A DNA stretch of 64,000 nt from Cytobacillus oceanisediminis (GTDB taxonomy: Bacteria > Bacillota > Bacilli > Bacillales > Cytobacillaceae): the NCBI RefSeq assembly GCF_022811925.1, contig NZ_CP065511.1, positions 248,001 through 312,000 of the forward strand. Direction: 5' to 3'. Positions within the stretch are counted from its first letter, which is position 1; each line of letters starts with the position of its first letter. Positions 22,860 through 36,885 of the stretch are shown one piece after another. The translations under genes were made by a program, and so were the position numbers. Below the pieces are notes generated by a model. It worked only from the letters and a program-made list of their open reading frames with translations, made no database searches and was not told where the DNA came from.

Positions 22860-22952
22860 GGAGGAATACCCAAGTCCGGCTGAAGGGATCGGTCTTGAAA
22901 ACCGACAGGCGGGTCAAACCGCGCAGGGGTTCGAATCCCCTTTCCTCCTCCA
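22860..22952 (+). tRNA. tRNA-Ser (TGA)
   Basis: 93 nt with a long variable arm. Acceptor GGAGGAA/TTCCTCC, anticodon loop CTTGAAA (TGA), T arm GGGGTTCGAATCCCC, CCA encoded at 22950-22952. The discriminator base before CCA is T, whereas Bacillus serine tRNAs normally have G there. Lies directly after serS with its own promoter. Confidence 0.95.
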
Positions 22953-22995: not shown

Positions 22996-23023
22996 AAAAC
23001 CGCTGGTGATCAGCGGTTTTTTT
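22996..23023 (+). terminator. Terminator after tRNA-Ser
   Basis: Stem AAACCGCTG / CAGCGGTTT with loop GTGAT and T7. Confidence 0.9.
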
Positions 23024-23074
23024 GTTATATAATTTTTTCGCTATGTGTGGAGTGTTAAGTTAATCCTCCGCGAA

Positions 23075-23185
23075 GTGGCCGATAAATTGAAAAAGTGACC
23101 GATAAATTAGTGCTTTGACCGATATCCTGTGAAAGTGACCGATAAAAAGAGAATCTGACCGATATATGTGTGGAAGTGGCCGATA
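23075..23185. repeat. Six-unit direct repeat with exact 20-bp period (core TGACCGATA)
   Basis: A 10-bp core kTGrCCGATA starts at 23075, 23095, 23115, 23135, 23155 and 23176, giving spacings of 20, 20, 20, 20 and 21. The 10 bases between cores differ from unit to unit. Core versions are GTGGCCGATA (first and last), GTGACCGATA (twice), TTGACCGATA and CTGACCGATA. A 20-bp period is not a multiple of three, so this is not a coding repeat, and 10-bp variable parts are too short for a CRISPR. It sits in a 340-bp gap between tRNA-Ser and the convergent dck gene that otherwise holds only two terminators. Confidence 0.85.
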
Positions 23186-23271
23186 ATACTATTTTTTGAA
23201 GGACCGCGGGGAGAATTTCGTCAGCGATCCTCATTTCTGCTGAGTATTCGGAGCCATTAATTAAAAGAACA

Positions 23272-23304
23272 GCAAAAAACCGCCGAAAATGGCGGTTATT
23301 TTTT
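23272..23304. terminator. Bidirectional terminator between the tRNA-Ser region and dck
   Basis: AACCGCC (23278-23284) / GGCGGTT (23291-23297) with an A run before and T run after, so it works on both strands. It overlaps the dck stop codon. Confidence 0.85.
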
Positions 23305-23964
23305 TAATAATTGAGTTTGTCTTAAAAAATATGAAATGCGTTCCACAATCGGCTCAATGGACTGCTCATTCTGAATGATGTCATAGTCATTGATATTCAG
23401 GCGCAGGACCGGGCATGCGTTAAAGCTGTTAATCCAATTTTCGTAGCGCTGGTGCATTTCTTCCCAGTAGGAAATAGGCGTCTGCTGCTCCATCGGACGG
23501 CCGCGCTCCTGGATGCGGGAAAGAATGTCATCAAGCGATCCTTCAAGATAAATAAGCAGATCAGGGTGCGGGAAGTATGGTGTCATCACCATCGCATCAA
23601 ATAAGCTGGTGTAAGTTTCGTAATCTACCTTGGACATGGTGCCTTTTTCATAATGCATTTTCGCAAAAATGCCTGTGTCTTCATAAATGGATCGATCCTG
23701 AACAAAGCCGCCGCCATATTCGAAGATGCGTTTCTGATCCTTGAACCGTTCCGCCAGGAAATATACCTGCAGGTGGAAGCTCCAGCGGTTGAAATCTGCA
23801 TAGAATTTATCCAGGTAAGGGTTCGTATCAACCTTTTCGAAAGAGGTTCGGAACCCCAGTGCGTCCGCAAGCGCATTGGTCATCGTTGATTTTCCGACTC
23901 CGACGGTTCCGGCAATCGTTATCACTGCGTTCGAAGGAATCTCGTATTTCTGCCTTAGATTCAT
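23296..23964 (-). CDS. dck: Deoxyadenosine/deoxycytidine kinase
   Basis: 222 residues. Phosphorylates deoxyadenosine and deoxycytidine in nucleoside salvage. P-loop GTVGVGKS at residues 19-26, the nucleoside-binding VQDRSIYEDTGIF segment, and the LID arginines in SRIQERGRPME. The ATG overlaps the dgk stop by four bases and GAGGAG lies upstream inside dgk, so the two kinases are translationally coupled. Closest to YaaG of B. subtilis from memory; distinguished from dGK by the GTVGVGKST loop. Confidence 0.95.
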   Translation of the reverse strand: MNLRQKYEIPSNAVITIAGTVGVGKSTMTNALADALGFRTSFEKVDTNPYLDKFYADFNRWSFHLQVYFLAERFKDQKRIFEYGGGFVQDRSIYEDTGIFAKMHYEKGTMSKVDYETYTSLFDAMVMTPYFPHPDLLIYLEGSLDDILSRIQERGRPMEQQTPISYWEEMHQRYENWINSFNACPVLRLNINDYDIIQNEQSIEPIVERISYFLRQTQLLKK

Positions 23965-24794: not shown

Positions 24795-26082
24795 TCACGC
24801 TCTTTTTGTAACATCGAAGTTTTCCGTAATCAGGAGCCAATTTTGCGGGAAAGAAAGGCCGAGTTTCCAGTAGCTCATTCCCCGCAGCTTCAGTTCTTTG
24901 ATTAAATCGAATTTTGCCTGGATGGAGCGGGCATCCTCAAACCAGACCTCATGTCTTTTCCCGTCTGGTGCAGTGTAGTTGAAAAATGGAGCCTGTGCCT
25001 GGTAATCCAAAACCTGCACTACTGGACCATCGGAAACAGCCATTGCCGGGCCTCCGCTGTAGCCCCATTCATAGGTCATGATTACCACAAAATCAACAAT
25101 CTCCCCATGGGCTTTATAATCATGGGCCTCATACCAGAGGCCTTGCTGTTCTGCGCTTGTTTTCGGCGCCAAGGCTGTAGAAATCAGCCAGCCTTCCTGC
25201 CCGAACCTTGCCTTCGCTTTTCTGAGAAAATTGTTATAGGCTTCCCGGTCAGCCGGGCGCAGAAACTCGAAGTCAAAATGAATATCCCTGAAGCCATATT
25301 TTTTTGCTGTGGCTGTAATGTTATCCAGGAATTTATTCTGAATCGCCATATCATTTAACAATATCCTGCCGAGTTCATCACTGAACTGATCATTTTCCTG
25401 ATTGGGCTTCCCGGTCAGCCGGGCGCAGAAACTCGAAGTCAAAATGAATATCCCTGAAGCCATATTTTTTTGCTGTGGCTGTAATGTTATCCAGGAATTT
25501 ATTCTGAATCGCCATATCATTTAACAATATCCTGCCGAGTTCATCACTGAACTGATCATTTTCCTGATTGGTAATAACCATCATCAATACATTATTATTG
25601 GCTCTCGCTATGGCAGGGAAATCATTTAGAAGCGGCTCCTTCAAAGAACCATCACGAAGGGCCTGGAAACTGAATGGCGCCAGATATGTCAGATAAGGCG
25701 CAGCCTCTCTTGCGCTCTCCTCCAGTTCAGGGGCGACTGTATTGCCTCTTGGCTCCACATAGGCATTGAACTCTGCTTTCGTTTTCGGGCGTGGCGGGAT
25801 ATAAAGACGGAAACCCACCTGCAGAGGCTGGCTTACCGATATGCCATTGACAGATGCCAGCTGCTGATAAGAAATGCCGAATCTTCTTGAAATCGAGTAA
25901 AGGCTGTCACCGGGCTGAACCCAATAAAAGCTTCCTATTATCGGAATAACAAGCGTCTGGCCGATCACCAGATTATTTGGATTGGGAATTTCATTTGCCT
26001 CTATTAGATCTTCAACCGTCGTTCCATATGCCTGGGCAATGCCGAACAAGGACTGGTTTTGCTGGACCACATGAATCTGCAA
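24795..26082 (-). pseudogene. sleL: Spore cortex-lytic/N-acetylglucosaminidase SleL (YaaH), frameshifted by a tandem duplication
   Basis: Two LysM domains (about residues 1-48 and 49-95: VVQQNQSLFGIAQAYGTTVE; YWVQPGDSLYSISRRFGI) precede a GH18 domain with catalytic DIHFDFEFLRP. Such enzymes cleave spore cortex during germination. The likely start is TTG at 26082, seven bases after AGGGAGG; a GTG at 26106 overlaps that site. The reading frame breaks because 166 bp are present twice (25239-25404 and 25405-25570). Removing one copy restores a single frame of about 373 residues. Compared with the ~427-residue B. subtilis protein I also miss about 56 residues between GGPAMAVSDGPVVQVLDY and QAQAPFFNYT. 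Either a true pseudogene or, more likely given the paired loss and gain, an assembly error. Confidence 0.85.
25239..25570. repeat. Exact tandem duplication of 166 bp inside sleL
   Basis: The segment starting GGCTTCCCGGTCAGCCGGGC at 25239 starts again at 25405, with an offset of 166 through ...TTTTCCTGATTGG. 166 is not a multiple of three, so the second copy is out of frame. No difference was seen between the copies. Confidence 0.93.
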
Positions 26083-36651: not shown

Positions 36652-36767
<116 letters not shown>

Positions 36768-36774
36768 CATATGA

Positions 36775-36800
36775 AAGAGCACCTGATGGGTGCTCTTTTT
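36775..36800 (+). terminator. rrn operon 2 terminator
   Basis: Stem AAGAGCACC / GGTGCTCTT with T5, same as operon 1. Homology between the two operons continues about 70 bp beyond it. Confidence 0.92.
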
Positions 36801-36885
36801 CTATATGTATGGATGATTTACTGAATCAAAATTGGGCTCTCCCTTTTAAGGAAATATTTCTATATGTGCCATTCCGTCCAATATA

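Follow-up and report, generated by a model that had tools for sequence, protein, structure and literature searches.

Six-core arrays at two-turn spacing, dispersed in Bacillales chromosomes, as candidate sites for a head-to-tail DNA-binding protein

The array and its locus

In a gap behind a tRNA gene of Cytobacillus oceanisediminis six short direct repeats follow each other with striking regularity, and the question is whether such a row is a site at which a protein acts, the remains of a mobile element or simply the outcome of slippage. The stretch of DNA analysed (the window) comprises 64,000 nucleotides, and the array occupies positions 23076–23185. A first-pass annotation had described six units of a ten-base core at 20-bp steps, the last step being 21 bp, with ten unrelated bases between the cores. 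We confirm the six units and the steps 20-20-20-20-21. Nine bases, TGRCCGATA, are found in all six units, but the leading K of the ten-base form in only five, unit 5 being preceded by C. With a nine-base core the spacers are 11 bp long (the last one 12 bp) and, far from being unrelated, they follow a loose position-specific consensus across the family described below.

The features of the locus are as follows.

22996–23024, plus strand: terminator-like hairpin with T run following tRNA-Ser, bounding the extra stretch on the left (sequence reading)
23031–23075, plus strand: leader of the element, resembling other copies (comparison of copies), left end approximate
23076–23084, plus strand: core 1, TGGCCGATA
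23096–23104, plus strand: core 2, TGACCGATA
23116–23124, plus strand: core 3, TGACCGATA
23136–23144, plus strand: core 4, TGACCGATA
23156–23164, plus strand: core 5, TGACCGATA, then the last spacer of 12 bp
23177–23185, plus strand: core 6, TGGCCGATA
23186–23273, plus strand: tail, within the stretch missing from empty sites, right end approximate
23274–23306, no strand assigned: terminator-like hairpin belonging to the convergent operon, at the right boundary

As had been annotated, the site is non-coding: it lies 3′ of tRNA-Ser (22860–22952) and its hairpin and is followed by a convergent gene (23296–23964), whose 3′ end faces it. The hairpin at 22996–23024 is kept in relatives without the array. 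The consensus of the leader runs roughly CACTATGTG..TGGAATGTTGATA..ACGCGAAG, and the tail has no clear counterpart among other copies. The first genes of the window are presumably dnaN, recF, gyrB and gyrA (recognised without a family search); oriC is therefore expected just before base 1, and the annotated distance of about 23 kb from oriC is right. In the gap between tRNA-Ser and the convergent gene (23025–23275) other extra stretches are present in the genomes G019, G007, G002 and G004 (loci L167, L170, L176 and L177); these look like other interspersed repeats, so that the gap appears to be a landing site.

A dispersed family and its architecture

The genome-wide search suggested in the first-pass annotation revealed that the array is not unique. 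For pairs of cores 10–12 bp apart the own genome gave 53 matches, 26 on the forward and 27 on the reverse strand, and none with the pattern written backwards. By our own grouping these matches fall into 20 loci, all on the chromosome contig, 16 consisting mainly of TGACCGATA at 20/21 bp and four mainly of TGGCCGATA at 21 bp. Within the genus 24 of 36 genomes have a pair match and 12 have none; with one further genome from another family the survey counts 25 of 61 genomes, the backwards control giving one match in G002, four in G044 and none elsewhere. A stricter pattern searched throughout the order was matched by 8 of 397 genomes, three of them by a single pair. Scanning named genomes for three cores yielded at least 117 stretches; with nine metagenome records set aside, the matches listed come from Cytobacillus with relatives, from Sporosarcina and Bacillus litorisediminis, and from a small number of other Bacillales. 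In Sporosarcina and a few other Bacillales the core is the same and the spacers differ. Six of the metagenome matches (L047, L060, L064, L075, L092 and L099) were judged to be unrelated simple or coding-like repeats and were dropped, and L130, L131 and L142 were left out without reading their sequences. Furthermore, 18 viral matches, two-core only except for one three-core row, were set aside as chance. The name Pseudomonas sp. ISL-84 is doubtful, as the flanks in its records are close to Cytobacillus, and genome G011, whose places and matches are identical to those of the C. oceanisediminis 2691 record, belongs to the genus of the window. The window array is one copy of a chromosomal element that is dispersed and for the most part inherited vertically. 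Searching the literature for the exact sequence gave only chance-looking titles among the matches listed, and topic searches named no such family among the matches listed.

The canonical element in Cytobacillus consists of a leader of about 45 bp, often ending in ACGCGAAG, and the array. Six units are present in 53 of 107 arrays and the exact order 20-20-20-20-21 in 30 of the 107, counts which are not independent because orthologous copies are included, and which refer to a set with step lengths confined to 19–22 bp, leaving out the other-Bacillales loci L042, L051, L069, L094, L111, L123, L138 and L143 and still containing a few Sporosarcina-like arrays. When steps of 13–29 bp were permitted, 547 of 556 were 20 or 21 bp long; detection by exact cores with gaps of 10–12 bp favours intact cores and this step length, and the registers were defined on the own genome. 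The Cytobacillus spacers 1 to 5 are position-specific, roughly TATTGAAAAAG, AAATTGAAATC, TATTGAAAAAG, AAATnAAAATC and AACnTGnnAAAG. In Sporosarcina all 106 steps are 21 bp (extension allowed from 17 to 25 bp), the spacer identity is 0.46, and five units are present in 18 of 30 arrays, usually after an opening unit that differs slightly (TGACGATAAC...). Two loci, L024 and L146, are hybrids in which a TGACCGATA array is followed by degenerate TTGGCCGGTA-type units.

Inheritance in place and constraint on cores and spacing

The places orthologous to the 20 own-genome arrays were located in six relatives, 111 of them in all. In the reference genome G000 the window element is filled, as it is, with other spacers and another tail, in Cytobacillus sp. 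NCCP-133; a one-unit remnant is left in G011, and the site is empty in G001, G003, G005, G008 and G010. The first-pass annotation had held that absence from close relatives would speak against a binding array; the site is indeed absent in most relatives read, though the family recurs. At L018 a leader remnant is kept at the empty sites of G001 and G003, which indicates loss. On the other hand, L201 looks like a gain: G000 and G011 carry the array there, and five relatives have a clean empty site. Between two C. oceanisediminis genomes the flanks of 11 arrays were searched in the other genome and ten stretches were read. Seven arrays are at the same site in the second genome, four of them with exactly 20-20-20-20-21, and two (L100 and L118) are one-core remnants with the leader kept; for one there was no core in the stretch read, where only one flank was found, and for one there was no flank match in the other genome. 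So the arrays are old; for the most part they were inherited where they stand, and change affects mainly entire units. As they shrink, vanish or decay in several lineages, any function must be dispensable.

This history bears on the main rival to a binding site, namely that the arrays are relics of a dispersed non-autonomous element whose copies decay in place, the cores being sites of the mobilising enzyme. Some transposon ends do carry several recognition sites of about 20 bp. The leader and the unit order common to copies at unrelated loci, the many truncated copies, the patchy filling of L201 and of the window site, and the dispensability just mentioned would all fit a relic. We nevertheless regard it as improbable, if the most credible of the alternatives. 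Comparison of leaders with tails revealed neither a shared right end nor inverted ends among the copies: the scores were 15.5 for the own tail, 15.3 for the tails of other copies and 14.5 for shuffled tails (72 of 101 copies retained once similar tails were removed). Tails compared with each other scored 17.1 versus 15.7 when shuffled, an excess which we put down to the A/T runs of terminators. Target duplication was not seen by eye in six aligned loci, no transposase was found among 16 family-matched neighbour genes (20 sent, 16 of 20 loci), and clustering of 579 nearby reading frames gave no recurrent neighbour beyond orthologous loci and broad unnamed clusters; on these grounds the more specific candidate of an IS or MITE end array was rejected. 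In addition, nine of the 11 arrays or their remnants are at the same site in the two close genomes, the other two being not fully comparable. Finally, a relic should gather short indels as the tails do, yet the arrays gather fewer.

The comparison of rates was made between genome pairs without the reference and only at loci where each genome has two or more units, since empty sites otherwise inflate core change. In 9 of 15 pairs the cores change about half as fast as the spacers (p < 0.01), an advantage of only about two-fold. The strongest cases are G005–G008 (core 52/458 versus spacer 95/444 changes, p = 3e-5), G008–G010 (36/287 versus 81/279, p = 9e-7) and G008–G011 (46/358 versus 86/317, p = 2e-6); G001–G005, G001–G008, G001–G011, G005–G010, G005–G011 and G010–G011 follow with p values from 0.0002 to 0.009. 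The difference is not significant in the remaining six pairs, G001–G003, G001–G010 and G003 with G005, G008, G010 and G011. All pairs with G003, a genome itself without an array match, rest on two loci, and in two of them the cores are nominally faster (13/71 versus 6/70 in G001–G003 and 17/71 versus 12/72 in G003–G005).

Spacing was assessed from indels. Against the reference G000 we counted 12 short indels in 5340 bp of array and 88 in 6478 bp of leader and tail, that is 2.2 per kb in arrays, 15.5 in leaders, 11.7 in tails and 5.5 in flanks; this six-fold rarity relative to leader and tail is to be read with the caveat that changes of G000 itself are counted repeatedly and that its arrays are intact by choice. 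Without the reference the effect is smaller, array indels being 2.6- to 5.8-fold rarer in all four pairs tried (p 0.006 to 0.035). Among the longer indels within arrays, 41 of 50 correspond to entire units (20–22, 40–42, 60–63, 81 or 102 bp). The spacers change like the tail in sequence and less in length, and this greater steadiness of length is the strongest evidence that spacing matters. From the alignments the core and the two-turn register look constrained, the spacer sequence much less.

An ordinary minisatellite, kept regular by slippage and unit-level recombination alone and with no binding function, would explain the common gains and losses of whole units as well as the 40-bp dimer expansions in L084 and L100. 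It would not lead us to expect that the spacers should diverge as the tail does, and the cores and the spacing less, that unit number and order recur at unrelated loci, or that Sporosarcina has the same core with other spacers, and we consider it quite unlikely; in particular, decay of a once-perfect 20-bp minisatellite, which the first-pass annotation had named as possible counter-evidence, fits badly. Cores that lie on the same face of the helix, are directional and constrained in spacing, and are separated by freer spacers are what a head-to-tail protein array needs. Thus, with rather more belief than doubt, we suggest that the array is a binding array for a putative cooperating head-to-tail DNA-binding protein, several copies of which would sit head to tail on one helix face. 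Of the cooperative same-face array proposed in the annotation, the phasing, the recurrence and the apparently constrained spacing have stood; binding and cooperativity are what we infer from this pattern.

Genomic position, known systems and a possible role

Where the arrays lie may hint at what they do. Placed relative to genes, 122 arrays are in 39 convergent, 8 divergent and 75 co-directional gaps, versus 45, 79 and 235 among 359 other gaps of the same loci (orthologues are counted; a further 28 of the 150 arrays could be assigned to no gap). The arrays are therefore enriched between convergent genes and depleted between divergent ones. An earlier count with other gene thresholds (n = 112) gave 55 co-directional, 30 convergent and 11 divergent arrays and 16 that overlap a reading frame. 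The scarcity in divergent gaps would likewise be expected if insertions at such places were merely eliminated. In several of six aligned own-genome loci the element lies, judged by eye, between or beside terminator-like hairpins, and in five of 12 loci picked for an Rfam scan an array follows a 5S rRNA gene at a distance of 130–225 bp (four of these loci are in strain 15_TX and one is in CGMCC 1.10115). The window itself, behind its second rRNA operon (about 36730–36850), is without the array that 15_TX (L141) and ISL-84 (L134) carry at the matching place. NCBIfam matched 16 of 20 neighbour genes (16 of 20 loci covered), and their functions are unrelated, including mreB-like, phosphotransacetylase, ychF, purF, catalase and transporters; one TGGCCGATA array sits 8 bp behind purF.

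The excess in convergent gaps and the copies behind rRNA operons suggest that the action is probably local and architectural or insulating. The nucleoprotein complex would then be a site that deals with torsion or read-through rather than the regulator of a particular gene; the insulating role is speculative. Carried further, the arrays would be sites throughout Bacillales chromosomes at which six cores at two-turn spacing and a putative head-to-tail protein mark boundaries of topology or transcription, where units converge and downstream of rRNA operons, and for which the literature matches listed gave no name. In this full form the proposal is tentative and rather doubtful.

The position behind genes would also allow the arrays to be part of read-through RNA and to act there as a structure or a repeated protein-binding site. 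This we hold to be very improbable, as both orientations relative to the neighbouring genes occur, folding of six stretches from four loci was not unusual (z −1.1 to 1.6) and Rfam gave no match over the arrays in the loci scanned.

The first-pass annotation had also considered a replication iteron and a chromosome-organising site. The former is not supported: one 221-bp Cytobacillus stretch had no match among 72,556 records of plasmids and 50,697 of phages, the own-genome arrays are confined to the chromosome contig, and the 16 named neighbours are unrelated to rep or par, which led us to reject a plasmid centromere as well. The latter gains something from 17 of 20 own-genome loci lying in the origin-proximal half, but this bias is weak, as Sporosarcina thermotolerans has only 9 of 15 loci there (if its origin is at position 0) and the Cytobacillus sites are shared by descent. 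Nor is there the strand bias for which a check had been advised, 9 of 16 TGACCGATA arrays being co-directional with replication (hand count, terminus assumed opposite the origin).

REP/BIME, BOX and bcr are small interspersed intergenic repeats, REP being palindromic. The arrays are direct repeats without a folding signal in the six stretches, which sets them apart from REP/BIME.

The following comparisons draw on excerpts of the papers cited. As described there, the STAR elements of staphylococci are interspersed intergenic direct repeats of unknown function, with stable loci within a species, variable unit number and a patchy distribution between species; their 14-bp GC-rich repeats, of consensus T(G/A/T)TGTTG(G/T)GGCCC(C/A), are at least 40 bp apart, with spacers distinct for each locus (PMC3532100). 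Our arrays are likewise intergenic direct repeats in Firmicutes with stable loci, varying unit number and patchy distribution. Unlike STAR they are built from a 9-bp core with a period of 20/21 bp, with a leader, six units in a canonical order and a loose spacer consensus across the genus; by reading, the core TGRCCGATA does not agree with the STAR consensus, and spacers of 11–12 bp are far shorter, so that we rejected membership in this family. The TAACTGA repeats of Beggiatoaceae are also intergenic direct repeats at many loci, patchy and with an unknown binder (PMC4679880), but from the excerpt these are tandem heptamers mostly just upstream of start codons.

Rows of direct repeats bound by proteins are known. 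ParR centromeres such as that of pSK41, with 20-bp repeats, are bound cooperatively (PMC9426499), but the ParR site described lies on a plasmid beside parM, whereas the arrays are chromosomal, at about 20 loci whose neighbours are unrelated. RemA (PMC8481266) and BldC (PMC5859096) coat rows of direct repeats at promoters, RemA with footprints of 7 bp and 3-bp gaps and BldC head to tail with protomers on 9-bp repeats; the arrays differ from the sites so described in their period of 20/21 bp. Closest in geometry are the LytTR operators, 9-bp direct repeats 10–13 bp apart in pairs or triplets, bound by the LytTR domain (PMC11347149), to which the 9-bp cores 11–12 bp apart in our arrays correspond, but the arrays typically have six units and lie mostly outside divergent gaps.

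LytTR was the one candidate family tried as binder, and it gained no support from co-occurrence, as its genes do not track the arrays: 36 of 37 genomes have LytTR genes, whether they carry arrays or not, and G002, with 104 pair matches, has no LytTR open frame of about 216 aa among its matches. The core TGRCCGATA is, we presume, also unlike the LytTR consensus. A LytTR gene does lie between two arrays (G000:C1:1114665-1114952; open frame of 216 aa, about 216–226 aa in many relatives), and the frame of about 216 aa is missing among the matches of the array-free G003 just as among those of the array-rich G002.

If the binding reading is true, the family makes a chromosomal DNA-binding factor of environmental Bacillales directly accessible to testing and bears on whether small interspersed repeats of Firmicutes are functional sites or relics, as a fixed register with drifting spacer sequence would be a natural signature helping to tell the two apart.

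Two minor observations concern annotation. The reverse strand of the array contains TATCGGTCA, which is stop-free in all frames, and arrays may thus create long spurious reading frames that get annotated as proteins. Elsewhere in the window, at 25239–25571, a stretch of 166 bp is perfectly duplicated in tandem (2.0 copies, 100%) and so splits a gene, which we take to be LysM-glycosidase-like, into two overlapping frames; this is either a recent duplication or an assembly artefact.
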